Virus record (IMG/VR): IMGVR_UViG_3300032829_000008
Coordinates: 1 to 64,000 of that record
DNA length: 64,000 nucleotides
Source: a virus
Direction: 5' to 3' (one strand)
Made by a program: the position numbers and the translations under genes. The notes below the pieces were generated by a model. That model was not told where the DNA came from. It saw only the letters and a list, made by a program, of their open reading frames with translations, and searched no databases. Of this stretch, positions 27,827-49,669 are shown one piece after another. How positions within the stretch are numbered: position 1 is the first letter of the stretch; every line of letters begins with the position of its first letter.

Positions 27827-28020
27827 AGTTGACACCTAGTCTATTGGAAGCGGTGTGGGCCGCGACATACGTGCGCGTGCTTAGTGCGATACCGTGCTCG
27901 TCAACTGGGTTGATTCACGAGCTGGCCGAAGTACTCGGTGATCCAACGCAGGCCCGCGTGCACCACGCGCAGCGCGCCGCCAACCGAGCAGTGGACGCAC
28001 TGCAGGAGATGTTCGAGTGA
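27823..28020 (+). CDS. Small helical protein, unassigned
   Basis: 65 residues, mostly helical (LLEAVWAATYVRVLSAI, ARVHHAQRAANRAVDALQE). No motif. It overlaps the hypermodification gene by 4 bases, so the two are probably co-translated. Confidence 0.55.
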   Translation: MKLTPSLLEAVWAATYVRVLSAIPCSSTGLIHELAEVLGDPTQARVHHAQRAANRAVDALQEMFE

Positions 28021-28946
28021 AGCTCGCAATCAAGTTCTGGGAGTTCATCCGCGAGCGCGAGGCCATCCGCCTGCGCCGCGCCGCCGGTCAGCCCGCGCCG
28101 TGGACGGAGGATAAGATCCTCCGCGCGTACAAGTTCACCAACGTCAAGCGCGAGCATGATCGCACCAGCGTTGCGCTCAAGGCGATATACGATCAGCACG
28201 TGTTGCGGGCCAGCGACAGAGTGGTGTGGCTCAACTGCGCGCTGTATAGGCTGTTCGGCACCGCGGAAATGGCTGCAGCTCTGGGCTGGGTCAGGGCGTG
28301 GGGTGACGAGTCACACCGCAGGTCGCAAGTGCTCAGGTTGGCAGCCACACGCCTGGCCACGGGGCAGCGAGTGTTCACTGGCGCGTACATTGTTCCTAAC
28401 TGCGGTCGCACACGCCCCAAGCATGAGGTGGTGTGTAGTATTGTGGATGGAGTATGGAAGGCAGCACCAGAGCTGTGTGACCGTGCCATGGACCGTTGGG
28501 AACTGGCGGTAGGCGTGCTCACGCAGCTGTGGGGCATCGGCAGCTTCATCGCCAAAGAGATCGTCCTGGATTACGTCATGGCCACCGGCTGGCGTCCCAG
28601 CGACTGGCAGACCTGGACGCCCATTGGTCCCGGAGCGCGGCGCGGTGCCATGCGGGTGCTGGACGGTAAGCTGATCCATCCACACGGTTTGAGCGAGCAC
28701 TACGCGCTGAAGGTGTGCCGCGAGTTGTACACGCAGCGTCGTGATCAGTGGGAGGACTGGTGGTCCACTGCGAATCACGCCGCGGTGTTCAGCGACGAGG
28801 TGCGACGTAGTCGGAACTACAACCAACTGCCACCCCACAGCCACCTGGACCTGACCGACATCCAATTCCAGCTGTGCGAGTTCGACAAGTACCAGCGCGC
28901 CCTGCGCGGCGAGGGCCGACCTCGCAGCCGGTTTACACCGACGTAA
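28017..28946 (+). CDS. Thymine hypermodification protein (HMUDK_hel / aGPT-Pplase type)
   Basis: 309 residues. The N-terminus KFWEFIREREAIRLRRAAG, then PAPWTEDKILRAYKFTNVKR and EHDR, is the signature of the all-helical, glycosylase-related family linked to 5-hydroxymethyl-dU DNA kinases and alpha-glutamyl/putrescinyl thymine pyrophosphorylases of phages. The central region (about 165-190, LTQLWGIGSFIAKEIVLDYV) has a helix-hairpin-helix look. It should act on 5-hmU in DNA to make a bulky thymine derivative that resists restriction. Which of the two activities is not visible. Confidence 0.75.
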   Translation: MKLAIKFWEFIREREAIRLRRAAGQPAPWTEDKILRAYKFTNVKREHDRTSVALKAIYDQHVLRASDRVVWLNCALYRLFGTAEMAAALGWVRAWGDESHRRSQVLRLAATRLATGQRVFTGAYIVPNCGRTRPKHEVVCSIVDGVWKAAPELCDRAMDRWELAVGVLTQLWGIGSFIAKEIVLDYVMATGWRPSDWQTWTPIGPGARRGAMRVLDGKLIHPHGLSEHYALKVCRELYTQRRDQWEDWWSTANHAAVFSDEVRRSRNYNQLPPHSHLDLTDIQFQLCEFDKYQRALRGEGRPRSRFTPT

Positions 28947-29014
28947 ACGAGCGTGCACACCCGCTCGCCAAGTGACCGGAAGGACATTTCCCTTGCGTTG
29001 GCCCGCGGGGTGCA
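28931..29014 (+). promoter_or_regulatory. sigma-54-like promoter A with upstream dyad
   Basis: Upstream sites GTTTAC (28931-28936) and GTAAAC (28943-28948) form a perfect inverted repeat with a 6-base spacer; the second overlaps the upstream stop codon. The core TGGCCCGCGGGGTGCA (28999-29014) has GG-N10-GC. Site centres lie 67 and 55 bp before the GG. The predicted start is 29025, three bases before ATG 29028. Confidence 0.7.
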
Positions 29015-29027
29015 CTACGTTTGGGGC

Positions 29028-30128
29028 ATGACGAAGCAGCCTCCCGCCCTCCCCGTTATCGCGCCGGACGAGTATCTGTTCCCGACCGTGCAGCAGCGCG
29101 CCGACCTGCTGGACTGGATGCAGTACCGCCGCACGGTGTACCTGTGGCCCGACAGCAGCATGGGGCACGTGGCCATCAGCGAGCGCCTGAACAACTACAC
29201 GGTGGAGCATGCCACCAAGCGCCCGAGCGCCGAATTCGCGCAGAAGGTGCTGCACCCTCAGACGTACCCCGCGGGGAGCGGGTGCCGTGGGAGGCGCTAC
29301 TACTGGGTGTACGATACGGACTACCCGTGCAACGGTTGCCCGGACTGCCACAATTGGTGCGCGGGGTTCCACATCGGCGCATTCGTGTGGGCTGCCGCCG
29401 TTGGCGGCGAGCATCGCGAGATTGCCGGTGCCGTTGCCGCCTACCAGTGCCTGGCCGCGGTGGGCGCCGTGTTTGCCCGCCTGCAGGAGTGTCTGGCTCG
29501 CATTGGGCGGTTCTTCGAGCGCGCGGAGCAGCGCTGGGAGGAGCTGCGCAAGGGCTGCCTCTACCGCGTGCAGGGACGCCGCGGCAATGCCAAAAACCAC
29601 AACGGCGCGGTGGGCGAGTGCTGCTGGATTGGGCAGGACGATTGGGGGCGGCCCCGCGCGGGGCTGCGCTTCCCGGGCCAGGAGAAGCTGGCGTACTTCG
29701 GTACCGGCAGCCTTGTCCGCGTTCCGACTCCGCCGCACGTGCTGGCGCAGCAGGAGCTGGATGCTCGCGAGCGCGCCGCTGCCAAGTTGGCGCAGCAGGC
29801 GGCCAAGGAGAAACTCGCAGCAGCGCCCCGCTACTCCGGTGGGCGCGATGGCACCGCGTACGTACTGCGCGGCGAGCACCGCGGTCAGTTCGGGAAGGTG
29901 TTCTGGATTGGTGAGGACAAGCGCCGCGGTGGCGTGCGGCTGGGCATTCGCCCGGGCGTGGTGAAGGGTACCAGAGGTGCCGGCAAGCGTCAGTCCAACG
30001 TGGAGCCCATTTGGGCCAACGCGGCCGATTGCTGCGACCAGAATGATGAGGTGGGCATGGTGGCGTGGGACGCCCTGCAGCGCGGCGATGAGGCCGCGCT
30101 GAACGAGGTGCTGGAGGCCAGAGTCTAA
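29028..30128 (+). CDS. KOW-repeat and Cys-cluster protein, unassigned
   Basis: 366 residues from ATG 29028, 14 bases after promoter core A; an in-frame GTG at 28953 is disfavoured. A Cys cluster CNGCPDCHNWC lies at about 100-110. Two KOW/SH3-like repeats follow (GCLYRVQGRRGNAK, about 183; GTAYVLRGEHRGQFGKV, about 283) linked by a charged Ala/Lys helix. The layout suggests nucleic-acid or ribosome contact, but no known family fits. Confidence 0.68.
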   Translation: MTKQPPALPVIAPDEYLFPTVQQRADLLDWMQYRRTVYLWPDSSMGHVAISERLNNYTVEHATKRPSAEFAQKVLHPQTYPAGSGCRGRRYYWVYDTDYPCNGCPDCHNWCAGFHIGAFVWAAAVGGEHREIAGAVAAYQCLAAVGAVFARLQECLARIGRFFERAEQRWEELRKGCLYRVQGRRGNAKNHNGAVGECCWIGQDDWGRPRAGLRFPGQEKLAYFGTGSLVRVPTPPHVLAQQELDARERAAAKLAQQAAKEKLAAAPRYSGGRDGTAYVLRGEHRGQFGKVFWIGEDKRRGGVRLGIRPGVVKGTRGAGKRQSNVEPIWANAADCCDQNDEVGMVAWDALQRGDEAALNEVLEARV

Positions 30129-30168
30129 CGCGCTCGGGTCGGGTGGCCCGGCGCATGAAAGGAGCAGT

Positions 30169-30687
30169 ATGGTGATGACAGCACAGCAGAACTACAGTCG
30201 GCGCGAGGGCATCAAGGCCCAGGCGGCAGCTCGCCGCGCCAAGAAGGAGGGCCCCGTGGCCAAGGAGCTGATGGCCGCTGCTTGGGCGGCCCTGGTGAAG
30301 ATGGTGGCCGACGATGGCTTGGACGATCAGCCAGCGCACGAGTTGTGGGACGTGGTGCCCTGGTGCGGCAAGCTACTGGCCCTGCCCCGTGACCCGGCCA
30401 TGGCCGACGACTGCCACATGGAGTGGTCCGCGGAGGGCTGGCTGCTGGTGGAGGGGGCCGCACCCGTGCGCTGCCACGACGAGCAGTGGTGCCTGTGGTG
30501 GGAGCGGGTGTGCCGCACCGCGGCCCGCTACGGCGTGGACGTGCGCGACAAGGTGCCGCCCGAGGGTGCCCTACTGGCCTGGGAAAAGGGCCGCAGCGGC
30601 CTGTGGTACGCGCTCAACCAGCTGGAGGACCAGCTGGGGCTGCCGCACAAGGTGCGGCAGTGGTCCGACATCAAGTGGGACGACTGA
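30169..30687 (+). CDS. Early protein, unassigned
   Basis: 172 residues with a good AAAGGAG before ATG 30169. Helical N-terminus, then a Trp/Cys-rich middle (WVVPWCGKLL-like, DEQWCLWWERVC). No motif. Its stop codon lies inside a long perfect hairpin (30686-30722). Confidence 0.62.
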   Translation: MVMTAQQNYSRREGIKAQAAARRAKKEGPVAKELMAAAWAALVKMVADDGLDDQPAHELWDVVPWCGKLLALPRDPAMADDCHMEWSAEGWLLVEGAAPVRCHDEQWCLWWERVCRTAARYGVDVRDKVPPEGALLAWEKGRSGLWYALNQLEDQLGLPHKVRQWSDIKWDD

Positions 30688-30722
30688 TAACGGGCGGCCA
30701 CACGGTGTGGCCGCCCGTTATC
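30686..30722 (+). terminator. Long perfect terminator-like hairpin
   Basis: A 17-bp perfect stem, GATAACGGGCGGCCACA pairing with TGTGGCCGCCCGTTATC, with loop CGG. It overlaps the stop of the upstream gene. Its outer bases GATAAC and GTTATC resemble the upstream promoter sites, and GTTATC (30717-30722) is 44 bp from promoter core H, so the region may both end one transcript and control the next. Confidence 0.68.
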
Positions 30723-30777
30723 ACTCCGGAAGCAAGTCGGCCAAATCATGTGGACTGAAGTCGGCACGCCGGTAGCA
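30717..30777 (+). promoter_or_regulatory. sigma-54-like promoter H
   Basis: Core CGGCACGCCGGTAGCA (30762-30777) with GG-N10-GC; the GTTATC site centres 44 bp upstream, as in promoters C and K. The predicted start, 30788, is one base before a 5'-end hairpin. It lies between a terminator-like hairpin and the gene at 30850, exactly where a promoter is needed. Confidence 0.65.
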
Positions 30778-30788
30778 ATAAACCCCTT

Positions 30789-30810
30789 GCACGAGTCAGG
30801 TGGCTCGTGC
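30789..30810 (+). other. 5'-end stem-loop of the predicted mRNA
   Basis: Perfect 7-bp stem GCACGAG/CTCGTGC with loop TCAGGTGG. It begins one base after the start predicted for promoter H, the place where 5'-stem-loops protect mRNA. Confidence 0.6.
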
Positions 30811-30849
30811 TAACAACCCTAGACGATACCCAATGGAAGGAAGCAGACC

Positions 30850-31371
30850 ATGGCAGTAGTCAGCAAGCGCACGTTCGGGCTGCACGGCCCACTCACCTAC
30901 GACCAGCTCAACCAGCTGAGCACCCTGGAGCTCATCCAGCTGCACAACGCCAAGAGCGAGAAGCAGATCAAGGTGTTCCACACCAAGGCCAAGGGCATGA
31001 ACAAGGTGTGGGAGCTGTATGCCGCCGAAGAGGTGGTCGAGAACAATCCCCCCGCCGAGACCGCCGATGGTGGCGCGAACGGCATCGAAACGACAACGGA
31101 GGCAAGTGACATGGCGAAGAAGACGAAGGCACCCAAGGCACCCAAGGCGAAGAAGGCTGGCGGTGGCACCCGCATCCCGGCGGACGCGACCATCAAGGTC
31201 CTGGCCAAGGAGAACCCTTACAAGAAGGGCACCAAGGCGTACGCCACGTTCGAGCTGTTCGGCAAGAGCAAGACGGTGGCCGAGTTCCGCGAGAAGGCGA
31301 GCGACAAGGATCGCTTCGACCCGGGGTACATCAAGTACTCCAGCCGCGACGGCTATATCAAGATCGGGTAA
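30850..31371 (+). CDS. Lys-rich-linker DNA-binding-like protein
   Basis: 173 residues. N-terminal helical domain (LTYDQLNQLSTLELIQLHN), a Lys/Pro/Ala linker (MAKKTKAPKAPKAKKAGGG, about 90-108) and a C-terminal domain (IKVLAKENPYKKGTKAYATF, VAEFREKASDK) like one in many bacterial and phage small proteins. The basic linker suggests DNA binding. Own transcript predicted from promoter H; its stop sits in a hairpin. Confidence 0.65.
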   Translation: MAVVSKRTFGLHGPLTYDQLNQLSTLELIQLHNAKSEKQIKVFHTKAKGMNKVWELYAAEEVVENNPPAETADGGANGIETTTEASDMAKKTKAPKAPKAKKAGGGTRIPADATIKVLAKENPYKKGTKAYATFELFGKSKTVAEFREKASDKDRFDPGYIKYSSRDGYIKIG

Positions 31372-31460
31372 CTGGGTCGCCAGGCGACCCAGTAGGGCAG
31401 GCCGACCTCGGCCGACCTTAGGCGCCTCCGCGGGTGGAGCGGGGCGCCTGCCCTGCGAGT
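31371..31460 (+). other. Structured intergenic region with terminator-like hairpin
   Basis: An 11-bp stem ACTGGGTCGCC/GGCGACCCAGT (31371-31393, nearly no loop) overlaps the stop codon. A second long-range stem pairs GGGCAGGC (31395-31402) with GCCTGCCC (31446-31453), with direct repeat GGCCGACCT inside. Likely terminator followed by folded RNA. A weak GG-N10-GC element (31537-31550) lies further on, without upstream GTTAAC sites. Confidence 0.5.
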
Positions 31461-31561
31461 AGGCACGCAGCACACGGCCACGAGCACCTTCAGTGGTGAA
31501 CCGCGCAGCGAACCCTGGGGCGCGGGGTGGTGTCTTGGCTGCGTGCCTGCTCGGAGGGCAC

Positions 31562-32386
31562 GTGCAAACCATCTTCGAGTTCGGCGACGCTAAGCTGGCC
31601 GCCGTGGACCTGGACCCGTTGTACGTGGCCGCGGTGCGCATGCCGTGGGGTCACGTGGAGCGCTGCAGGTTCACGCTGGCCGAGGTCGCGTTCGACCTGG
31701 CCGGCAAGGCAGCGGAGGTGGTGGAACGGTGTGCCTCCGGTATGCCGTTCTGGGACTCCATGCGCGCCGCCGCGGCGGACACCAAGCGCGGCGCACCGCG
31801 CCGCTACTTCCGTGGGCCCAAGTGCATGGACGCGTTGGAGGTCATGCGCGAGCTGTACCCCGATGCGCCCGAGGCCCTGGCCGCGCTGGCCGGCACGTTC
31901 GCGCACGCCGAGGAGGTGGTATGCGGCAGCTGGCCGCTGTGGGGCCCCACCGCCGCGTTCAAGATCGCCGACATGGCCGAGCGGGTGTGCCAAGTGCCCG
32001 TGGACTTCGGCGCCGTCGGCGAGACGGAGATCTGCAGCAACGCGCAGGTGCGCAAGGGTTGGGACAAGGCCCGGGACGTGTTGGCAGCCGCAGGCGACGC
32101 CCGCGCGCAGGACCTGGCGGCCAGTCTGCGCCAGCACATCTGGTGCACCAAGGCACCACCGCGGTGGGACCGCGAGTTGGGGCCACAGGAGTGGGAGACG
32201 CTCCTATGCTACTACAGCCACGACGACGAGCACAATCATCACTTGCCCGGCATGGACCGACTCGGCATCGCCGAGGAGCTGTACGATCATGGCGACGTGG
32301 CCGCGGAGCTGCTGGGACACTTGCCCTGGGCGACCGAGGCGGAGATGTACGAATGGCTGGACGCCAAGCATAGGAGAACCAAATGA
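31562..32386 (+). CDS. Helical protein, candidate base-modification partner
   Basis: 274 residues from GTG 31562, chosen because GGAGGG lies just upstream; GTG 31493 is in frame but has no ribosome site. All-helical, with PWGPTAAFKIADMAERV-like core (SWPLWGPTAAFKIADM, about 142) and VPVDFG, reminiscent of phage amino-acid:DNA transferase-type families. Near the P-loop kinase and thymidylate synthase homologue. The transferase idea is a guess from pattern and context. Confidence 0.5.
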   Translation: MQTIFEFGDAKLAAVDLDPLYVAAVRMPWGHVERCRFTLAEVAFDLAGKAAEVVERCASGMPFWDSMRAAAADTKRGAPRRYFRGPKCMDALEVMRELYPDAPEALAALAGTFAHAEEVVCGSWPLWGPTAAFKIADMAERVCQVPVDFGAVGETEICSNAQVRKGWDKARDVLAAAGDARAQDLAASLRQHIWCTKAPPRWDRELGPQEWETLLCYYSHDDEHNHHLPGMDRLGIAEELYDHGDVAAELLGHLPWATEAEMYEWLDAKHRRTK

Positions 32387-32589
32387 AGAGCAGGCACGAG
32401 TTTGTAGTAGTCAACCAGGATGGTAAGCGTGTGCAGTGGCTGCTGGAGTTCGAAAAGGACGGCGTCAACTTCACGTTGAGCCACCAGGGAGGTCAAGCAG
32501 TCAGCGCTTGGCTGCCGCCCGCCACCGCCGAGGACCTGCGCGAGCTGTTGGCGATGTACCAGAATAGTCGCAAGCGGAGCGGCGCGTGA
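32383..32589 (+). CDS. Small protein, unassigned
   Basis: 68 residues from ATG 32383 (ATGA). Beta strands then a helix (AEDLRELLAMYQNS). Coupled to the P-loop kinase gene by a 4-base overlap. Confidence 0.55.
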   Translation: MKSRHEFVVVNQDGKRVQWLLEFEKDGVNFTLSHQGGQAVSAWLPPATAEDLRELLAMYQNSRKRSGA

Positions 32590-33188
32590 GCACGCTGCTG
32601 CACATCATCGGGGCCGGTGCCACCGGCAAGTCCACCCTCACGCGCGGTCTGCTGGGGGAAGGTGCCGTGGACGGCAACGCCTCCATCAGCGAGGCAGTAC
32701 CACGCGCCAAGTACGGCGCCTCGCGGGACTTGTGTAGGTACGTCGTCGGCAATCTGAAGAACGGCACGGATAGCGTGAGTGAAATGGTGACTGCGGCGGC
32801 GATCGCCAACTGGCTGTTGGGATTGCACAGGACCAGTCTGGTGATCGTGGATGGCGTCCGCAGCAGCGCCAAGTGGTGCGTGGACTGGGCGCACTCCCCG
32901 GAGTGCAGAGCGACGCACCTGGCGTACGCGTACCTGGACCTGTCTCTCGACGAGACGCTGGAGCGCCTGCGCGCGCGTCGCCGCGGCAACGGCGAGAGCG
33001 ACGAGCTGAGCGAGAAGACTGTGGCCAACGTCCGCGCGTTTCAGCGCCGCGCCCACGGCGTGTGGCGGAAGGTGGTGCAGCGTGCCGACCACCCGGGCAA
33101 GCCCACGGCACTGCTGGTGCTGCGCGAGGGCACCGCCGCGGATTGGTTGGAGCGGGCCGAGCAGTTCTTAACGCACCGCGTTGCGTAG
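32586..33188 (+). CDS. P-loop nucleotide/DNA kinase
   Basis: 200 residues from GTG 32586. Walker A is GAGATGKST (residues 9-17). SLVIVDGVRSSAKW (about 85) holds a Walker B-like strand, and LDETLERLRARRRGNGESDE is a lid-like basic helix. In this neighbourhood it could phosphorylate 5-hydroxymethyl-dUMP or 5-hmU in DNA, as in known phage thymine hypermodification. A general dNMP kinase is the alternative. Confidence 0.72.
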   Translation: MSTLLHIIGAGATGKSTLTRGLLGEGAVDGNASISEAVPRAKYGASRDLCRYVVGNLKNGTDSVSEMVTAAAIANWLLGLHRTSLVIVDGVRSSAKWCVDWAHSPECRATHLAYAYLDLSLDETLERLRARRRGNGESDELSEKTVANVRAFQRRAHGVWRKVVQRADHPGKPTALLVLREGTAADWLERAEQFLTHRVA

Positions 33189-33253
33189 AAAGCTTGCTTC
33201 ACTTGGCCGCGTAGTTGTAAGGTGGCCGGCACATTTAATGAAGGGTGGCAGCC

Positions 33254-33475
33254 ATGTACAAGCCTGTGCCGTGGGAAGGGTTGCGCAAGCTCTTGCGTTA
33301 CTCCTTTGCCGACCTGGGGAGTTACGATGATCTAACGGTGGAGGAGCAGGCTGCGCTGACCCGCGAGGAGTTCGAGGTGCTGGCGGCTTGGGCCAAGCGG
33401 GATGAACCGATGGCCGCCGAGTTCCGATGTGAACACTGCGGCACCAACCACGTGGCCGAGCTGAGGGTCGCGTGA
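33254..33475 (+). CDS. Small zinc-ribbon-tailed protein
   Basis: 73 residues from ATG 33254. Acidic helical body and a C-terminal FRCEHCGTNHVAELR, a single CxxC with a nearby His. A 65-base gap precedes it with a near-match to the promoter core (TTGGCCGCGTAGTTGT) that has no upstream sites. Confidence 0.55.
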   Translation: MYKPVPWEGLRKLLRYSFADLGSYDDLTVEEQAALTREEFEVLAAWAKRDEPMAAEFRCEHCGTNHVAELRVA

Positions 33476-34470
33476 GGGTCCTGCATGTCCGCAACGTGCA
33501 CCGCGCGATACCCGCAGCGCTGGCTCACTTAGTGGAGCACGGCGAGCGGCGCGAGAGTCGCAATGGCCCGGTGCTGCAGCCTCCGCATCCCGTCACCACC
33601 GTGTACAGCCACCCATTGGAGCGGGTGGAGGCGTGGGTCGCGCGCAACAGCAACCCGTACCTGCACCTGTTCGAGAGCGCGTGGATGCTGGCGGGGCGCA
33701 ACGACGTGGCGAGCCTGGTCCGCTACGCCAAGCGGTTCGCCGAATTTAGCGACGACGGTGAGACGTTCAACGCGCCGTACGGTTACCGCTGGCGTCACGC
33801 GACCACGCAAAATGTCGATCAACTCGCAGTGATCGCAGATCAGCTGCGCGCCAATCCCAACACGCGCCAGGCGGTGCTGCAGATTTGGACCGTCAAGCAC
33901 GACCTGCTGGCGGTCACCAAGGACCACGCCTGCAACCTGACGGCGACGTTCCAGGTGGGCAGCGACGGTCGGCTGCACATGTGCGTGTTCTGCCGGTCCA
34001 ACGACATCGTCTGGGGCTGCTACGGCGCCAACGCGGTGCATTTCAGCTATCTGCTGGAGTATGTGGCCGCCCGGGCGGGTATCCCGGTGGGGACGTACAC
34101 GCAGATCAGTGTCAACTGGCACGGATACCTGTCCACGGTGCAGCCCCTGGTGGCAGCTGGGCTGCACCAGCACGGCGAGCACCCCAGTTCGTACGAGACT
34201 GGCGCCTGGACGCCGTATCCCATCACCAGGGGCGGATTCGACGCCCACTGGTTCGACGTGGACCTTGCGGTCGCCACCAGTGACCAAGGTCGCGCGGTGG
34301 AGGCCAGCTATCACCACGCCTGGTTTCGCGAGGTGCTGCTGCCGGTCATGCGCAGCCACGACGCCTACAAGGCGGGTGATCGATTCGGCGCGCTGCACCA
34401 CATATCAGACTGCGCTGCCACGGACTGGCAGCAGGCGTGCCGGTGGTGGCTCGCCAGAAAGGCAAAGTGA
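33472..34470 (+). CDS. Thymidylate synthase homologue, likely dUMP hydroxymethyltransferase
   Basis: 332 residues from GTG 33472. Thymidylate synthase fold: NAPYGYRWRH-type substrate loop (about 100-109), KDHACNLTATFQ with catalytic Cys154, then CRSNDIVWGCYGANAVHFSY with Arg175, Asp178 and Asn187, and VNWHGY (His217, Tyr219). Asn187 fits a uracil rather than cytosine substrate. Phage homologues that make 5-hmdUMP feed thymine hypermodification. The neighbouring genes support that, but plain dTMP synthesis cannot be excluded. Confidence 0.8.
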   Translation: MRVLHVRNVHRAIPAALAHLVEHGERRESRNGPVLQPPHPVTTVYSHPLERVEAWVARNSNPYLHLFESAWMLAGRNDVASLVRYAKRFAEFSDDGETFNAPYGYRWRHATTQNVDQLAVIADQLRANPNTRQAVLQIWTVKHDLLAVTKDHACNLTATFQVGSDGRLHMCVFCRSNDIVWGCYGANAVHFSYLLEYVAARAGIPVGTYTQISVNWHGYLSTVQPLVAAGLHQHGEHPSSYETGAWTPYPITRGGFDAHWFDVDLAVATSDQGRAVEASYHHAWFREVLLPVMRSHDAYKAGDRFGALHHISDCAATDWQQACRWWLARKAK

Positions 34471-34784
34471 ACGAGACTCCGGAGCAGTGGCGCGAGCGCC
34501 ACAAGGACAACCCGCGCCTGCAATACTACCTGCGCATGGATCCCAACTACGGCGCGCACAGGCATCAGCGCGAGTTCGTGGATCGCCAGTGGTGGCTGCA
34601 GGCCAACTTCCCCTGTCCGGTGAACCACGAGGTGCACCCCGGCGCGCCGTGCGCCGGCAACAGGGACCACGCAACGGACGATGCCAAGCGCCACCCCGGA
34701 GGGCTGCACGCGCCGTGTTGCTACAGCGGCGCAGCGCTGCAGGCAGCGTACGAGTGGCAGCTCGCCTCCAGGGGGCGACCATGA
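34467..34784 (+). CDS. Small Cys/His protein, unassigned
   Basis: 105 residues from GTG 34467, overlapping the TS-like stop as GTGA. Rich in Trp, His and Cys (CPVNHEVHPGAPCAGNRDHA, HAPCCYSG) in a pattern that may bind a metal. Follows the synthase and precedes the nucleotidase; role unknown. Confidence 0.58.
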   Translation: MNETPEQWRERHKDNPRLQYYLRMDPNYGAHRHQREFVDRQWWLQANFPCPVNHEVHPGAPCAGNRDHATDDAKRHPGGLHAPCCYSGAALQAAYEWQLASRGRP

Positions 34785-35380
34785 TCCGCGCCGGCAGGCC
34801 GCCCAAGCCTCGCGTCGGCCTGGACGCGGACGGCGTCCTGAGGGACTTCCAATCGGCCATGGTGGAGGTGATCAACGCCGCGCTGGCGCGCGCCCACACC
34901 GTGGAAGAGTGGACCGAGTACGAGTTCGAGCACGCGTTCGCCCTGAGTCCCAGTGAGCGCAAGCTGGTGGTGAACGCCATGCTGGCGGAGCGAGATTTCG
35001 TCCGCAACATGCCGGCGCTGCCTCACCTGGACGTGGAGATGTTGCGCAACACCGCCACGGTGTATTGCGTGACCGCTCCGTGGCCGCACCACCCCACCTG
35101 GGTGGCGGATACATACTGGTGGCTACGCGAGCACTTCGATTTCCACCACGACAACGTCCTGCCGGTCCACGACAAATGGCTGATCAACCTTGATTGGCTG
35201 GTGGACGACAAGGTCAAGAATCTGGAGCTGTGGCAGCAAGAGCACCCCAAGGGCCACGCCGTGCTGTGGGAGACCCGATGGAACGCGCACGAGCGCTGGT
35301 CGGGTCGGCGCACCAACAGCACCATGGTACTGCAGGCATGGGTGGAGGAGCACGCCCTGGAACTGGCAGGTGCACGATGA
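34781..35380 (+). CDS. HAD-family 5'(3')-deoxyribonucleotidase
   Basis: 199 residues from ATG 34781. HAD motif I is VGLDADGVLRDF (Asp15, Asp17), motif II VYCVTAPW, motif IV HDKWLINLDWLVDDKVKNL with the paired Asp. This is the cytosolic deoxynucleotidase (NT5C) type. It could remove dTMP or dUMP pools that compete with a modified precursor. Confidence 0.78.
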   Translation: MIRAGRPPKPRVGLDADGVLRDFQSAMVEVINAALARAHTVEEWTEYEFEHAFALSPSERKLVVNAMLAERDFVRNMPALPHLDVEMLRNTATVYCVTAPWPHHPTWVADTYWWLREHFDFHHDNVLPVHDKWLINLDWLVDDKVKNLELWQQEHPKGHAVLWETRWNAHERWSGRRTNSTMVLQAWVEEHALELAGAR

Positions 35381-36099
35381 TGGTCGACTACATCGCGCAG
35401 CTGGACGCCGTGGCGGCCAGTTTCCAGGAGCAGGATCCGGCCGTGGCGCTGCAGGCGTGCTGGATGGAGTACGAGGGTGCGGCGCGCGCCGTCCACTGGG
35501 ACGTGCTGGGTGAGAAGGCGAGACTCGGTAGCTGCCGCACCCTGGGCCGCGAGCTGATGTCGCTGCTGTACCGTGCGTGTCCCAACACCTCCGCCAAAGC
35601 AGATGCCGACCTCATCAAGCTCAAGGACCGCGACTATGGCGGCAGCTGGTGCAAGCGCGGCGGAGCCAACGCGTTCTTCATGCTGTGCCGAAAGTGGGAT
35701 CGCCTGGAGCAGTTCCTGGCGCAGCACGGCGGCAACTGGTGGACCATGCTCCGGAAGGAGGCCGGTGGTATCGAGCCGATACTGGATACGGCCATGGACC
35801 TGCGCTGCTACCTGATGCTGGTGGAGGCGTGGCACTGCGCCGCGGAAGTGCGCGCGCCACACTGCAACACCTGCGGCCAGAAGATGGCGCGCACCGTGGA
35901 CGATACCGGTTGGTATTGCCCGAACACACACTCGGCGCGCACTGTCGTCGCAGGTGTTGACATTCCCTCTGGGGCCACGCACTACGGCGCGCCACCTCTC
36001 GGTACTGCGGTCCAGCTGTGTGGTGACCTGCACGGTGGGAATTGCTCCTACCAACGCGGCCACCAGGGCAAGTGCTCCGATGACCAGGCGCATCCATAA
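35377..36099 (+). CDS. DUF1599 (nucleotide modification-associated) protein with zinc ribbon
   Basis: 240 residues from ATG 35377. The core LIKLKDRDYGGSWCKRGGAN and CRKWDRLEQFLAQHG matches DUF1599, a phage family tied to nucleotide modification genes. The C-terminal third has CNTCGQKMARTVDDTGWYCPN, a zinc ribbon, and CGDLHGGNCSYQRGHQGKCS. It belongs with the neighbouring nucleotide genes; the reaction is unknown. Confidence 0.65.
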   Translation: MMVDYIAQLDAVAASFQEQDPAVALQACWMEYEGAARAVHWDVLGEKARLGSCRTLGRELMSLLYRACPNTSAKADADLIKLKDRDYGGSWCKRGGANAFFMLCRKWDRLEQFLAQHGGNWWTMLRKEAGGIEPILDTAMDLRCYLMLVEAWHCAAEVRAPHCNTCGQKMARTVDDTGWYCPNTHSARTVVAGVDIPSGATHYGAPPLGTAVQLCGDLHGGNCSYQRGHQGKCSDDQAHP

Positions 36100-36253
36100 A
36101 ATGGAGGCCAAAGATTTCTACGAGACGTGGCGCCGCGCTGCCCGTAAGCATGGTGTGGAAGTGGATGAGAGGTGGGAGGACCTCACAGAGTGGGAACAAG
36201 CCGCCTGGGAGGCGGTGGTGAGCCGTGCCCTAGACCTCGCGTGGTCAAGGTAG
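36080..36253 (+). CDS. Small helical protein, unassigned
   Basis: 57 residues from ATG 36080, or 50 from ATG 36101; neither has a clear ribosome site. Helical (ETWRRAARKHGVEVDERWED, LTEWEQAAWEAVVSRAL). It precedes the polymerase by three bases. The start is uncertain. Confidence 0.5.
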   Translation: MTRRIHKMEAKDFYETWRRAARKHGVEVDERWEDLTEWEQAAWEAVVSRALDLAWSR

Positions 36254-36256
36254 AAA

Positions 36257-38188
36257 ATGCAGCTGCCCCTCACATTCGTGCTGCCTCAGGCACCGTGGCG
36301 CCCAGTGCCGGTGAACCAGCTGCCAAGCTGGGAGGGCGCCAAGCGCGTGGCCGTGGACGTGGAGTGCCGGGACCCAGACCTCAAGGAGTTGGGTCCCGGC
36401 ACGTACCGCCCGGGCTGCCGCGTGGTCGGCATGTCCTTCGCTATCGAGGACGGCCCCGCGCACTACGTGCCGTGGGGCCACGAGGGCGGGGATAACGTCG
36501 ACGAGGTGCACGCCAAGGCATATTTCCGGGATAACCTCGGCGCATTCGACGGCATCATCACCGGAGCGAACCTGGGGTACGACCTGGGGTGGATTTGGAA
36601 GGACGTGTGCCGCACCCCCAAGGTGAGGGACTACCGCGACACCCAGGTGGCGGACGTCATGTGCTGCGAGCTGCACGACCGCTACGGGTTGGATGCCATG
36701 GCCGCGCGCTGGGCACTGCCAGGCAAGAACCAGGAGCTGCTCAAGGCTGCCGCCGCCGCGCACAAGATTCATCCCAAGCGCGACCTGTGGCGGCTACCCG
36801 CCCGCTACGTGGGCCCCTATGGTGAGTGGGACGCGGCCCTGTGCCTCCAGCTGCTGCGCCGTCAAGAGAAGAAGATCGAGGAGGAAGAGGTCCAGATCAT
36901 CTATACTCTGGAGTGCGCCGTGACGCCGATCTTGGTGGAGATGCGCGAGCGCGGCGTGCGGGTGAACATCCAAAAGGTGCTGGAGATCAAGCGGTGGGCC
37001 CTGGCGGAGGGTGCCCAGCGTCTGCACTTCGTCGCGCAGCGCACCGGTGTGCAGCTGGCCATGGAGAACGTGTGGAGCGCCGAGGCTATGGCCAAGCCAC
37101 TGCAAGCGCTCGGTCTCAAGATTCCGCAGATGGCCAAGCCCACCAAGGCCGACCCCGGGCGCACGCTGCCCAGTATCACTGGTGCTTTCCTGGACAGCTG
37201 CGGCGAGGTGGGCCAGGCCCTGGGTCGCGCACGAGACATGTCCAAGCTGACGCAGTTCGCCGATCGCGTGTTGCGCTACCAGGTGAATGGTCGCGTGCAC
37301 TGCACGTTCAATCAATTGCGCACCACCAAGGGCGAGGACGAGAACGAGGATAAGGGTGCACGCTTTGGTCGTCTGAGCAGCGATCACTACAACCTCCAAC
37401 AGGAGCCGGGACGCGACGACGAGTTTGGCGAGCGGTGGCGCGACGTATACGAGCCAGAGGACGACGAGGAGTGGGTGAGCTGCGACTGGTCGCAGCAGGA
37501 GCCGCGCTGGGGCGTGCACTACGCCGAGCTGCTTGGGCTGCCCGGGGCCAAGGAGTTCGCCGACAAGTACCGCGCCAACCCGGAACTCGACATCCACCAG
37601 GCACTGGCCGACATCAGCGGCATGCCCCGCAAGATCGTCAAGAATTTCGTCAACGGACGCCTGTACAACATGGGTGACGTCAAGCTGTGCCGCAGCATCG
37701 GTTGCCCGGTGGTGTGGAAGATGGGACGCGATGGCGTGCAGCGCGAGGCCCCAGGACCAGAGGGCCAAGCGAAGATCGACACGTTCAATCAATTCGCTCC
37801 CTGGCTGCGCGGCATCAACCGCGAAGCGCAGCGCCAAGCCGAGCGCAAGGGACACGTGTGGACCGTGCTCCGGCGCAAGTGCCGCTTCCCACGGGACGCG
37901 CAGGGTAACGTGGATTGGGGACAAAAGGCGTGGTCGCGCATCGGCCAAGGCAGCGCAGCGGACCAGGGTAAGGCCACGCTGGTGGCCGCGCACAAGGCGG
38001 GCATCCCTCTGCGCAGCATGGTGCACGACGAGTACAACTTCAGCACGCGCAGTCGAGTGCAGGCCCGCACCATGCGCGAGCTGATGATGAACACTGTGAA
38101 AGCCAGTGTGCCCATGCACGTCACGGTGAAGATCGGCCCCAGCTGGGGCAAGGGTAAGAAGATGAAACCCGAGGAGCTGGAATCGTGA
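36257..38188 (+). CDS. Family A DNA polymerase with 3'-5' exonuclease
   Basis: 643 residues. Exonuclease motif I AVDVECRDP (Asp34, Glu36), then GANLGYDLGWIWKDV. Polymerase motif A is SCDWSQQEPRW (about 409), motif B RKIVKNFVNGRLYNMG (about 457-472, where the usual YG is YN) and motif C MVHDEYNF (about 590). No 5'-3' exonuclease domain. This is the replicative polymerase and must accept any modified dNTP. The exonuclease gene overlaps its end. Confidence 0.92.
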   Translation: MQLPLTFVLPQAPWRPVPVNQLPSWEGAKRVAVDVECRDPDLKELGPGTYRPGCRVVGMSFAIEDGPAHYVPWGHEGGDNVDEVHAKAYFRDNLGAFDGIITGANLGYDLGWIWKDVCRTPKVRDYRDTQVADVMCCELHDRYGLDAMAARWALPGKNQELLKAAAAAHKIHPKRDLWRLPARYVGPYGEWDAALCLQLLRRQEKKIEEEEVQIIYTLECAVTPILVEMRERGVRVNIQKVLEIKRWALAEGAQRLHFVAQRTGVQLAMENVWSAEAMAKPLQALGLKIPQMAKPTKADPGRTLPSITGAFLDSCGEVGQALGRARDMSKLTQFADRVLRYQVNGRVHCTFNQLRTTKGEDENEDKGARFGRLSSDHYNLQQEPGRDDEFGERWRDVYEPEDDEEWVSCDWSQQEPRWGVHYAELLGLPGAKEFADKYRANPELDIHQALADISGMPRKIVKNFVNGRLYNMGDVKLCRSIGCPVVWKMGRDGVQREAPGPEGQAKIDTFNQFAPWLRGINREAQRQAERKGHVWTVLRRKCRFPRDAQGNVDWGQKAWSRIGQGSAADQGKATLVAAHKAGIPLRSMVHDEYNFSTRSRVQARTMRELMMNTVKASVPMHVTVKIGPSWGKGKKMKPEELES

Positions 38189-39015
38189 AGACCATCATCA
38201 CCGTGGACACCGAGACCACCGGCCTGGACGTGCAGCGGGACCGCGTGGTGGAGTTGGCCTACAGCCTCGACGGGGTCGAGGCTGTAGTCCACCGCTTCAA
38301 TCCTGGCATGCTCATGGAGCCGGAGGTGATTGCCAAGCATGGCATCACCAACGAGGAGCTGGCCAGCTGCCCACCCTTCAGCGCGTGGTGGCAGGACATG
38401 GTGGGTGACCTGGAGGGAGCGGGCGTGTGGGTGGGCTACAACCCGCAGTTCGACATCGAGATCCTCATGGCGGAGTTCGCGCGATGCGGCCACGTGTTCC
38501 GCCCACCGCGCATGGTGGTGGATCCCAAGCGACTGTGGGACATCAACGATCCGCGCCCGCCGCGCACCCTGGAGGCCGCGTACAAGACGTTCGTGGACCC
38601 GGCGGGGTTCGCCAACGCGCACTCCGCCAAAGCGGATATCTTAGCCACGCGCCGCGTGCTCGACGCCATGCTGGACAAGTGGCAGCTCCGCGGCAAGCCC
38701 TGGTCGGAATTGGACCCGGAGCGCGCCACCTGGTGGGGTCCCACCAAGCACATCGCCTGGCAGCCCTGGACCATCGGCCGAAGGGGTATCGGTAATGCAG
38801 ACCCCATGTACAGCTTGGTAGCCAACTTCGGCAAGTACGAGGGACGCTGCGTCGTGGAGCAGGTGCCGCGCGACTACTGGCGGTGGCTATTAAGCCAGGA
38901 CTTCCCCAGCCACGTCAAGCAGCTGGCCAGCGCGTTGCTGGATGACACCAAGCACCCCACCGCGGTGCTGCAGTGGGCGTGGAAACAGTGGCCGCCTATG
39001 AAGGGAGTAGTATGA
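38185..39015 (+). CDS. DEDDh 3'-5' exonuclease
   Basis: 276 residues from GTG 38185. Motifs: VDTETTGLD (Asp/Glu near residue 8), a HGITNEEL loop, GYNPQFDIEIL and AHSAKADILATRR (His and Asp), as in DnaQ/RNase T proteins. A second half of about 100 residues has no recognisable motif. Likely proofreading or recombination support. Confidence 0.85.
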   Translation: MKTIITVDTETTGLDVQRDRVVELAYSLDGVEAVVHRFNPGMLMEPEVIAKHGITNEELASCPPFSAWWQDMVGDLEGAGVWVGYNPQFDIEILMAEFARCGHVFRPPRMVVDPKRLWDINDPRPPRTLEAAYKTFVDPAGFANAHSAKADILATRRVLDAMLDKWQLRGKPWSELDPERATWWGPTKHIAWQPWTIGRRGIGNADPMYSLVANFGKYEGRCVVEQVPRDYWRWLLSQDFPSHVKQLASALLDDTKHPTAVLQWAWKQWPPMKGVV

Positions 39016-39617
39016 TCATCGAGCCGGTCGTCATGGAGTGTCCGGAATGCCACAAGCTGCACGTGGATGAGGGCGAATTCGCCAAACGTCCGCACCACAC
39101 GCACCGATGCGTGGACGATGCTGCCGGCACCGGCTGTGGCCACGAGTGGCGCTTGGAGCACTACGTGCGCGGCGTGGAGCGCGACGCCACGGCGTGGCAC
39201 CAGCGCTTCATGGACATGGCGCTGCTGGTGTCGCACTGGTCCAAGGACCCCAGCACCAAGGCGGGCGCTGTCGTCGTGGACGAGCAGCGTCGCGTGCTGA
39301 GCCTGGGGTACAACGGATTTCCACGCGGCGTGGTGGACCATCCGGATCGCTACGCCAACCGCGCCGTCAAGTACAAGCTGGTCGTTCACGCGGAGGCCAA
39401 CGCCATCCTCACCGCGTACGTCGGTGGTGCCACGCTGTACGCCACCAAGTGGCCATGCAGCGACTGCAGCAAGCTCATCGCCCAGGCGGGCATCGCCCGG
39501 GTGGTTGCCCGGCGGCAAGGCGCCAACGCCAGCGACGTCGATCCACATTGGGCCGACGACCATCGGTGGGCGGAACTCATCCTGCGCGAGGCGGGAGTGA
39601 AGGTGGTGGAGCTGTGA
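39012..39617 (+). CDS. dCMP deaminase with N-terminal zinc ribbon
   Basis: 201 residues from ATG 39012. N-terminal CPECHKLHVDEGEF and HRCVDDAAGTGCGHEW form a zinc ribbon. The deaminase signature HAEANAILTAYVGGATLY (about 130) and PCSDCSKLIAQAG are intact. It makes dUMP, substrate for the synthase homologue. Confidence 0.87.
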   Translation: MIIEPVVMECPECHKLHVDEGEFAKRPHHTHRCVDDAAGTGCGHEWRLEHYVRGVERDATAWHQRFMDMALLVSHWSKDPSTKAGAVVVDEQRRVLSLGYNGFPRGVVDHPDRYANRAVKYKLVVHAEANAILTAYVGGATLYATKWPCSDCSKLIAQAGIARVVARRQGANASDVDPHWADDHRWAELILREAGVKVVEL

Positions 39618-39955
39618 GGACCTGGCGCCACAACGGCGAGCGCTGGCACGAGAGCACGGAACCAACGTGGCGCCGCGTCTTGCGGTGGCTGGTGTGGCTG
39701 GGCGGGTGGGAGTCGACTCGACAGTTGCCGCTGCGGTTGCGCCTGAAGAACGTCACACCGGTATCCCTGCTGGGACACCGGGTCACTTGGTACGGCTGGG
39801 GCGGTCAAATTCGCACGCCGGAGGGCTGGCTGGTGTGGGAACGCCGTAGTGGCCAGGTGTTCGTCAGCAAGGATGGCACGCCCTCCGGCGCGCACCTGTG
39901 GCTGCGCAACCCGCCGCGCGAAGTGCTGGAGCAGAGCAGTCGGAGATACTCGTGA
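39614..39955 (+). CDS. Small basic protein, unassigned
   Basis: 113 residues from GTG 39614. Trp- and Arg-rich, beta-type pattern (LLGHRVTWYGWGGQIRTP). No motif. Overlapped at both ends by 4-base junctions. Confidence 0.6.
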   Translation: MRTWRHNGERWHESTEPTWRRVLRWLVWLGGWESTRQLPLRLRLKNVTPVSLLGHRVTWYGWGGQIRTPEGWLVWERRSGQVFVSKDGTPSGAHLWLRNPPREVLEQSSRRYS

Positions 39956-40260
39956 GCGAGACGACCGAGACGATCGGCGAGTGGGCGGAGGGCACCTTCG
40001 GCCCCGTGAATCCCGTGGACGCTGCCCACCGCATCATGAAGGAGGCGGTGGAGTGCGCGGAGGCCACCAGCCAGCTGGTGCTGCACGGACTGGACGCCGA
40101 GGAGAAGGTGCGGTTGGAGCTAGCCGATATCATCATCACGTGCCGACGCCTGGCCTACACCTTGGGCCTGGACGTGGACGATGCGGTGAACATCAAGATG
40201 GCCGTCAACCGTCAGCGCAAGTGGCGCCTGGATGGCCGCGGAGGAGGGCAACATGTCTAA
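39952..40260 (+). CDS. MazG-like nucleotide pyrophosphatase
   Basis: 102 residues from GTG 39952. Four-helix pattern with RIMKEAVECAEATSQLV and ELADIIITCRRLAYTLGLDVD and VNIKMAVNRQRKW, the EExxE-ExxD layout of all-alpha NTP pyrophosphatases. It may remove competing or harmful dNTPs such as dTTP or dUTP. Confidence 0.7.
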   Translation: MSETTETIGEWAEGTFGPVNPVDAAHRIMKEAVECAEATSQLVLHGLDAEEKVRLELADIIITCRRLAYTLGLDVDDAVNIKMAVNRQRKWRLDGRGGGQHV

Positions 40261-46048: not shown

Positions 46049-46284
46049 TGGCCACGCTGCAGTGGCGCAAGCTGCGCAAGCTGCTGCTGGACGCCCTGCT
46101 GGATGTGGAGCTGCAGATCACCCACGAACTCGAGCTGGACGACGTCAACACGTTGCTGTCGTTTGTCGCCGAGCACTGGGGCCACGATGCACCCCGGCAG
46201 CTGGAGTACCACGATCTGGAGATGCGCATGCGCAAGCTGCAGGCCGAGCACGAGAAGCTCAAGGAGTACTGCCGTGACCGATAA
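46021..46284 (+). CDS. Small acidic helical protein, unassigned
   Basis: 87 residues from ATG 46021 (GAGG upstream), overlapping the membrane gene by 28 bases. Helices with RKLRKLLLDALLDVELQITH and a C-terminal coiled coil LEMRMRKLQAEHEKLKEY. Might be a spanin-like or lysis partner, but there is no signal sequence. Confidence 0.55.
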   Translation: MSDTLEPQLMATLQWRKLRKLLLDALLDVELQITHELELDDVNTLLSFVAEHWGHDAPRQLEYHDLEMRMRKLQAEHEKLKEYCRDR

Positions 46285-46813
46285 GCTGGTGAGGGAGGCC
46301 GCCGCTGGACGGGGCTTATGGATCGGCATCCCAGTACCGGTGGCGCAGTGGCGCGAGGAGAATCCGCTCCACCCACTGCTGCCGTGGCTGGGTGAGCGCG
46401 CGCACGTCACATTGCTACATATGGGCAAGCACCCGCAGACGGCTGCCATGCGCGTGGCGACGGCGCTGGCAGCAGCGCGCGCCGCGGCGGAGTGCTTGCC
46501 GGTGAAGTGCGCCGTCACCGGGCTGGGCTGGTTCAGCCGGCGCGCCGGACCGCCCACGCGCGTGGCCCTGGTCAACAGTCCATGGCTCACCAACCACCTG
46601 CGGCCCCGCGTATACCAGCGAGCCTCGCAGGAGTTGGCCCTGGACGACTGGTTCGGGTTTATCCCGCACGTGACGCTGACCGAACCAGCGAACACCTCGT
46701 GGGAGGATCTGGAAGACACCATGGGAGGGTTCCTCGGGTGGCGCGCGGAGATCATCCAGGTGCACTGCGGCGAGGTCACAGTGGACGTGGGCCTACCGGA
46801 GATGCCGTTTTGA
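46274..46813 (+). CDS. 2H phosphoesterase (LigT-like)
   Basis: 179 residues from GTG 46274, overlapping the previous gene by 11 bases. Two HxTL motifs, HVTLLHMG (His44) and HVTLTEPA (His132), are the paired catalytic motifs of 2H phosphoesterases. Phage members include Acb1, which cuts cyclic nucleotide signals of CBASS immunity. Others act on RNA ends. Which applies here cannot be read from sequence. Confidence 0.78.
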   Translation: MTDKLVREAAAGRGLWIGIPVPVAQWREENPLHPLLPWLGERAHVTLLHMGKHPQTAAMRVATALAAARAAAECLPVKCAVTGLGWFSRRAGPPTRVALVNSPWLTNHLRPRVYQRASQELALDDWFGFIPHVTLTEPANTSWEDLEDTMGGFLGWRAEIIQVHCGEVTVDVGLPEMPF

Positions 46814-47106: not shown

Positions 47107-47319
47107 ATGAAGAAGAAACTGTCTCTCCGTAAAGAGTCGATCCAGAAGCTTGGGAGCAGGGCGCTCTCTCAGGTGGTTGGTGGAGTCGACCAAACCGACA
47201 CCTGCCTCGGCACTCAGTGCCTGTGTTACCCGACGTACGGGCCGGACTGCCACACCGTCGGTTTCACGCAGTGCCTGTGCTCGGCTGGTCACACCAACTG
47301 CGGCTGCGTGGGCGGGTGA
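47107..47319 (+). CDS. Lanthipeptide-like RiPP precursor peptide
   Basis: 70 residues with a clear AAAGGAG before ATG 47107. Leader MKKKLSLRKESIQKLGSRAL, SQVVGG (Gly25-Gly26) fits class I lanthipeptide and GG-leader natural-product precursors. The core (27-70) has 8 Cys (33, 38, 40, 48, 56, 58, 65, 67) and 8 Thr/Ser, with TQCLC twice. No LanB/LanC-like enzyme is in the window, so host enzymes would be needed. A free toxin or signal peptide is the alternative. Confidence 0.75.
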   Translation: MKKKLSLRKESIQKLGSRALSQVVGGVDQTDTCLGTQCLCYPTYGPDCHTVGFTQCLCSAGHTNCGCVGG

Positions 47320-49331: not shown

Positions 49332-49669
49332 GGCTCTGCTACGTGGAGGACGATGCGGGTGTGGCGCGCAGCGTGATGCGCGCGCTGGCGCGCCTGCGCC
49401 CCGGGTGGGACGTGCGGCACTGCACCACGGTGCAGCAGGCCATCGAGGAGATGGCGACCTGCCCGGGCTGGTACCACGTGCTGTGCGACGTGGACCTCAA
49501 GGCGGGCGGCTGGGGTCTCGACCTGCTGGCGTGGGCCAGGGAGTACGAGCCGACCCTGGCGGCGCGGTTCGTGTTCCTCAGCAGCCAGGGGGCGGGGTAC
49601 GGCGTGCCCTACCTGGAGAAGCCCTGCAGCGCCGCGCAGGTGGTGGCCGCGCTGGAGGCGTTGCCGTGA
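49328..49669 (+). CDS. Stand-alone receiver (CheY-like) domain
   Basis: 113 residues from GTG 49328. Acid pocket VEDD (Glu7-Asp8-Asp9), phosphate acceptor in LCDVDLKAGGWGLDLL (Asp54), switch residue in FVFLSSQG (Ser85) and YLEKP (Lys98, Pro99). All receiver landmarks are present and there is no output domain. It could tap a host two-component system. It shares a transcript with the gene behind promoter C. Confidence 0.78.
   Translation: MRLCYVEDDAGVARSVMRALARLRPGWDVRHCTTVQQAIEEMATCPGWYHVLCDVDLKAGGWGLDLLAWAREYEPTLAARFVFLSSQGAGYGVPYLEKPCSAAQVVAALEALP

Follow-up and report, generated by a model that had tools for sequence, protein, structure and literature searches.

A thymidine-hypermodification gene set with an amino acid:DNA transferase homologue in a metagenomic phage contig

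The first 64,000 nucleotides of the IMG/VR virus record IMGVR_UViG_3300032829_000008 (positions 1-64000, hereafter the window; the whole record is 66,578 bp) carry a real thymidine-hypermodification gene set, a variant of a known strategy. We read it as a system of the kinase and amino acid:DNA transferase (ADDT) type, whose simplest product would be untailored N-alpha-glycinylthymidine, and give this reading a probability of roughly 0.6. The core enzymes are all encoded by neighbouring genes on the same strand within one early module. The most novel element is the switching of partners by the protein HMUDK_hel, which is discussed below.

In the pathway that we propose, dCMP deaminase would supply dUMP, which the thymidylate synthase (TS) homologue would convert to 5-hydroxymethyl-dUMP (5-hmdUMP). 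The 5'-deoxynucleotidase NT5C and the MazG-like enzyme probably shift the nucleotide pool against thymidine nucleotides, and 5-hydroxymethyldeoxyuridine (hmdU) would be incorporated by the family A DNA polymerase of the phage (PolA). After replication, the P-loop kinase and HMUDK_hel would phosphorylate hmdU in DNA, and the ADDT would then exchange the phosphate for an amino acid, most probably glycine, attacking through its amino group. The predicted end product is 5-(N-glycinyl)methyl-dU, that is, N-alpha-glycinylthymidine, with no further tailoring, and the modified base probably protects the DNA against restriction (bacterial DNA-cutting enzymes). Computation supports the gene identities, the fold of the ADDT, the synteny and the lack of known tailoring families; the individual reactions, the choice of amino acid, the point at which the pathway stops and the protection are deduced from these.

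Most of these genes had been named in an earlier note made from the letters alone: a protein of the hypermodification helical family, a TS homologue with Asn187, a P-loop protein, a 5'-deoxynucleotidase, a dCMP deaminase, a MazG-like enzyme and a DNA polymerase. Computational searches recovered all of them at the expected places (Table 1), and those with the hypermodification, TS and kinase families, as suggested there, were positive, the kinase match being weak. The route outlined in the note, from dUMP through 5-hmdUMP to hmdU in DNA and on to phosphorylation and conversion, fits the gene content and the gene-for-gene synteny with the phages M6 and PaMx11, whose SNF2 helicase, Pam3_Gp34-family protein, Dda-like helicase, modification cassette, PolA, dCMP deaminase, phrog_2165 protein and primase have counterparts here.

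Evidence for the transferase and the other core enzymes

The ADDT gene had been overlooked in the earlier note. Both sequence and predicted fold relate its product, an amino acid:DNA transferase, to PaMx11 gp46 (31% identity; 29% to M6 gp051). A PDB sequence search retrieved 8z2m, 'Glycinyltransferase' (E 5.6e-18), and 25qc, 'Amino acid:DNA transferase domain-containing protein' (E 7.6e-14). The AlphaFold2 model of the protein (pLDDT 81.6, pTM 0.83) matched 8z2m in Foldseek with E 6.3e-10 and TM 0.71; at E<=0.001 the search returned only 8z2m/8z2n, the PaMx11 5-phosphomethyl-dU glycinyltransferase, and no unrelated structures. All 20 invariant columns of a 12-sequence ADDT alignment are kept, including R99, R103, R104, K157, D160, E233, E235 and C239, as are 25 of the 32 family-conserved positions. 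The ADDT tree gives moderate support (85/91) to placing the window protein on the side of M6, PaMx11 and RHph_I65 (Gly-type), apart from PhiW-14 and ViI. As in PaMx11, a 173-aa gp45-like gene lies directly upstream of the ADDT gene. Since the enzyme is related to the PaMx11 glycinyltransferase, the final group, which the earlier note had held to be unreadable from the window, can be read in part as an amino-acid adduct. The amino acid added is probably glycine.

For an independent recovery of the genes, we used profiles made from other phages only and then run against the window. They found TS (E 6.5e-117), HMUDK_hel (1.4e-61), ADDT (6.3e-40), the MazG-like enzyme (4.2e-17), the gp45-like protein (1.7e-12) and the P-loop protein (6.2e-10), and chance is therefore ruled out.

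The TS homologue is predicted from its sequence to be a dUMP 5-hydroxymethylase. Its best PDB match is the CMP 5-hydroxymethylase 5b6d (E 1.1e-14). The TS profile match stops at residue 225. In the alignment with relatives Asn187 adjoins a conserved Gly-Ala motif; of the 43 relatives, 42 have Asn in that column. The catalytic Cys154 does not vary. The P-loop kinase is the most divergent member of its family and keeps 9 of 14 family-conserved positions; its Walker A (GAGATGKST) and G-x-D motifs are intact, and the invariant residues G9, G14, K15, G55, G60, D62 and R131 are all present. The related contigs L074 and L075 (L numbers denote the loci and contigs compared) each encode two P-loop proteins, one canonical and one divergent. 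Since the PhiW-14 route includes a pyrophosphorylated intermediate (PMC5977210), such two-kinase versions would be chemically plausible. NT5C takes the position that an HD protein holds in M6, PaMx11 and most TS loci and is also found in L075; a profile of the HD protein found nothing in the record. The DUF1599 label that had been given to the gene following NT5C did not survive, as PF07659 had no match in the record at E<=10. Assignment of this gene as DUF1599/Nmad1 was dropped; among its homologues only a distant one, L051:14725-15204, touches the model (E 0.052).

Known tailoring enzymes were not found. The slot between the ADDT and kinase genes holds a pyridoxal phosphate (PLP) enzyme and a radical SAM enzyme in M6, and an FAD enzyme and a GNAT protein in PaMx11, whereas in the window it holds only a 68-aa open reading frame (ORF), for which no homologue was found. 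The M6 and PaMx11 tailoring proteins had no match in the record by tblastn, and profiles of tailoring enzymes made from 3-7 relatives found none there. Six-frame searches of the record with PF04055, PF00583, PF00291 and PF01266 (radical SAM, GNAT, PALP and DAO) were negative, with positive results in 14 of 14 control genomes, and the unannotated gaps of the record contain no obvious tailoring candidate. Untailored N-alpha-glycinylthymidine is therefore the simplest prediction, unless orphan proteins of 391 or 172 aa encoded in the block act on the adduct. ADDT loci without known tailoring enzymes also occur in L019, L039, L040 and L045, which form a separate ADDT clade, so the pattern of the window is not unique. 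In L039 and L040 a methyltransferase-looking protein without a Pfam match lies near the kinase.

HMUDK_hel and its partners

HMUDK_hel of the window scores 136 bits with PF18723 (cutoff 25) and is 29% identical to M6 gp055. Its closest relatives were collected from 37 viral loci (32-47% identity), and a glycosyltransferase is encoded in 31 of these, either GT4-like (PF00534; 17 loci) or TAGT (PF20691; 14 loci). In a clustered subset of these loci the glycosyltransferase gene lies between HMUDK_hel and TS. No ADDT was found in 19 whole records of the glycosyltransferase type, in a search run without a positive control, though the members of the alignment are clear ADDTs; no P-loop kinase was found in nine such records (61-66 kb), where the same search was positive in the window, L075 and L097.

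In the HMUDK_hel tree the window protein groups with those of L074 and L075 (100/99) inside a clade of 28 rows (100/100), 22 of which neighbour a glycosyltransferase. Mapping the partner label onto this tree requires at least 7 changes. Across both partner groups 22 residues are invariant, among them R45, D48, K135, D185, C287 and E288, and all 22 are kept in the window protein. This suggests that HMUDK_hel has a single role that precedes both chemistries; it might, for instance, recognise hmdU in DNA or flip the base out. Tentatively, HMUDK_hel, whose Pfam name makes it the helical domain of the 5-hmdU kinase, could thus be a general module that recognises or presents hmdU rather than part of the kinase, serving either P-loop kinase and ADDT (in the window, M6 and PaMx11) or, in most of its closest relatives, a GT4-like or TAGT enzyme that would glycosylate hmdU; the lineage of the window would have switched back from the glycosylation type, with an untailored amino-acyl thymine as its base.

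Among the viral contigs, L076-L110 combine HMUDK_hel with a GT4-like or TAGT enzyme and TS, without kinase or ADDT, and represent a candidate sugar-hmdU type; they sometimes add genes for radical SAM/SPASM proteins, an FkbM methyltransferase or an epimerase. In L074, a protein resembling low-molecular-weight phosphotyrosine phosphatases by eye (L074:12191-12649) and a methyltransferase (L074:13052-13969; PF13489, E 3e-5) are encoded near the two P-loop proteins beside HMUDK_hel, and further modification chemistry is possible there.

Alternative readings

Several observations weigh against untailored glycinylthymidine as the product. The record is a metagenomic contig and possibly incomplete. 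The ADDT scores under the PF18724 gathering cutoff (22.0 and 20.8 bits vs 26.2), as do the ADDT-like proteins of the L019, L040, L035 and L036 records; we hold to homology despite this because of the phrog, blastp, PDB, leave-out and fold evidence. The protein also lacks the FKDP-like loop, has CYYSH in place of CKWKS and sits on a long branch (3.67). These features, together with the low Pfam score, make its substrate, and even its activity, uncertain. The substrates assigned to the M6, PaMx11, ViI and PhiW-14 enzymes are taken in part from PDB titles. The divergent kinase could correspond to the second P-loop type of L074 and L075, whose proteins match similarly weakly, and the HMUDK_hel lineage of the window mostly accompanies glycosyltransferases.

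Loss of the loop, the CYYSH motif and the long branch would suit an ADDT that transfers another amino acid, or an amine, via a changed acceptor pocket. The related ViI and PhiW-14 enzymes are tied to serine and ornithine, respectively. Ornithine labelling was performed with PhiW-14 (PMC5977210). We nevertheless consider a different amino donor unlikely, if worth keeping in mind: the ADDT groups, weakly, with the glycine enzymes of M6 and PaMx11, and no other structure matches it nearly as well as 8z2m.

The adduct could also be tailored further to a new base by an undescribed enzyme, namely the orphan 391-aa and/or 172-aa protein. Both are encoded inside the block, between the HMUDK_hel and ADDT genes, and most characterised relatives have a tailoring gene in the module. 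The 391-aa protein had no match in Pfam, PHROGs, NCBIfam, phages, viral contigs or genome contigs, and the 172-aa protein none in Pfam, PHROGs, NCBIfam or phages. On the other hand, no catalytic fold or motif is recognisable in either (a single-sequence structure model of the 391-aa protein reached pLDDT 40 and was discarded), unrelated orphan genes are common in phage modules, and the ADDT loci without known tailoring enzymes mentioned above exist. Such a tailoring step seems to us rather improbable.

Degeneration of the ADDT and/or the kinase would leave DNA with only hmdU, as in SPO1/SP8-like phages, or with phospho-hmdU. These two genes have indeed diverged furthest within the set, with the losses among family-conserved positions given above, but both frames are intact with a clear coding signal, and the invariant ADDT columns and the kinase motifs are all retained, which makes degeneration quite improbable. 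That HMUDK_hel works here with a glycosyltransferase to make a sugar-hmdU base, as the related loci might suggest, is very improbable, since neither family-specific profiles nor Pfam profiles, the latter run in six frames with positive controls, found a glycosyltransferase in the record and the kinase and ADDT are present instead.

If untailored glycinylthymidine is correct, the window would provide a divergent transferase whose candidate pocket is altered. The partner switching of HMUDK_hel makes the role of this protein directly testable and predicts families of sugar-hmdU phage DNAs.

The gene block, its phage and known systems

Table 1 Genes of the modification block, with predicted roles and supporting matches (numbers without a label are E-values or identities)
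Product	Position	Strand	Evidence
HMUDK_hel (aGPT-Pplase2-type), 309 aa; predicted hmdU-in-DNA partner of kinase	28017..28946	+	PF18723 E 1.8e-39; phrog_2396
Orphan 391-aa protein with Cys-rich stretch; possible tailoring enzyme	28953..30128	+	no match in any search
Orphan 172-aa protein	30169..30687	+	no match
173-aa homologue of PaMx11 gp45 / M6 gp049	30850..31371	+	blastp 4.6e-5; leave-out 1.7e-12
Amino acid:DNA transferase (ADDT); predicted 5-phosphomethyl-dU aminoacyl (glycinyl) transferase	31493..32386	+	phrog_6364 2.1e-29; PDB 8z2m
68-aa ORF in tailoring slot	32383..32589	+	no homologue
Divergent P-loop kinase; predicted 5-hmdU DNA kinase	32586..33188	+	phrog_800 8.9e-7; leave-out 6.2e-10; sits between ADDT and TS
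Thymidylate synthase homologue; predicted dUMP 5-hydroxymethylase	33472..34470	+	phrog_5131 E 3.2e-104
HAD-type 5'-deoxynucleotidase (NT5C)	34781..35380	+	PF06941 E 3.3e-15
Conserved protein, no role assigned	35377..36099	+	homologues in L014, L017, L018, L051, L053, L075
Family A DNA polymerase; presumed hmdUTP acceptor	36257..38188	+	PF00476 E 2.4e-26; 44% to PaMx11 gp55
DnaQ-like exonuclease	38185..39015	+	PF00929 2.7e-11; phrog_192 2.4e-41
dCMP deaminase; predicted dUMP supply	38973..39617	+	PF00383 E 7.5e-20; 49% to PaMx11 gp56
MazG-like / dATP-dGTP pyrophosphohydrolase-like; homologue of M6 gp074	39898..40260	+	PF12643 E 3e-6; PF04447 3.5e-5; blastp 1.4e-14

A simple coding-potential caller placed every chosen gene of the window on the + strand. 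Within the cassette, a 45-base stretch at 30682-30726 matches its own reverse complement at 93%, an inverted repeat that lies at the end of the 172-aa ORF and is possibly a terminator or regulatory hairpin. Elsewhere in the window, a 70-aa ORF at 47107-47319 (+; MKKKLSLRKESIQKL...LSQVVGG and a Cys-rich tail) matches the class I lanthipeptide leader model NCBIfam NF038153 (26 vs cutoff 22 bits) and is, from its sequence, an apparent precursor of a ribosomally synthesized and post-translationally modified peptide in a phage. A pattern scan of genome contigs found no relatives of this ORF. Just upstream, at 46259-46813 (+), a 2H phosphoesterase (PF13563, E 3.8e-8) resembling RNA 2',3'-cyclic phosphodiesterases is encoded, which could be an RNA repair or anti-CBASS-like enzyme. 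At ~49345-49666 (+) there is a weak match to the response-regulator receiver domain (PF00072, E 0.0033).

Megablast of the record DNA against known phages gave no match. The virion genes matched were those for terminase, portal, major head protein and a baseplate wedge (phrog_6, E 4.8e-27), together with a weak tail sheath match (phrog_279, E 6e-4); jointly they point to a contractile-tailed phage. It shares with the Mesyanzhinovviridae M6 and PaMx11 the common early replication/modification module. The siphovirus morphology of that family, with a non-contractile tail, is not what the window genes indicate, and because of the baseplate wedge and the sheath match we do not file the phage there.

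Of the phages closest in gene content, PaMx11/Ab18 (Abidjanvirus) shares ADDT (gp46, 31%), HMUDK_hel (gp50), TS (gp51, 44%), PolA (gp55, 44%), dCMP deaminase (gp56, 49%) and primase (gp59, 49%), as well as the gp45-like gene upstream of ADDT. In contrast to this siphovirus, the window lacks the flavin enzyme (gp47) and GNAT (gp48), has NT5C for the HD protein, two inserted orphan genes and a very divergent kinase, and has no ribonucleotide reductase gene that we could find adjoining the helicase gene; HMUDK_hel is encoded upstream of ADDT, whereas in PaMx11 it follows the kinase. M6 (Yuavirus) has the same core cassette (ADDT gp051, 29%; TS, 44%; PolA, 42%; MazG-like gp074, 32%), from which the window differs by the lack of the radical SAM and PLP enzymes; the modified base of M6 is 5-(2-aminoethyl)dU, or 5-NedU (PMC6449724). 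Rhizobium phage RHph_I65 is also similar (ADDT, 30%; HMUDK_hel, 27%; TS, 39%; PolA, 37%; primase, 48%), but it encodes a radical SAM-like protein, a polynucleotide kinase and an HD protein, unlike the window.

L075 (IMG/VR contig 3300006854_000004, 68 kb) is among the closest in layout, with SNF2, Dda, NT5C, HMUDK_hel (45%), PolA (49%), exonuclease (42%), TS (43%) and dCMP deaminase (45%). It differs in having a canonical kinase and a second P-loop protein, and no ADDT was found in its record. An exact-pattern scan of viral contigs with PolA as bait found nothing, which we regard as a limit of such a scan because relatives of 49% identity exist. PhiW-14 (putrescinylthymine) and ViI (5-NeOmdU) encode PF18724 ADDTs, which in the tree do not belong to the side that holds the window and Gly-type enzymes, and their chemistry proceeds through hmdU and then a phosphorylated intermediate (PMC6449724, PMC5977210). 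If our reading is true, the window phage would carry as its final base the amino-acyl thymine that in PaMx11 and M6 is only a stage on the way to the finished base.

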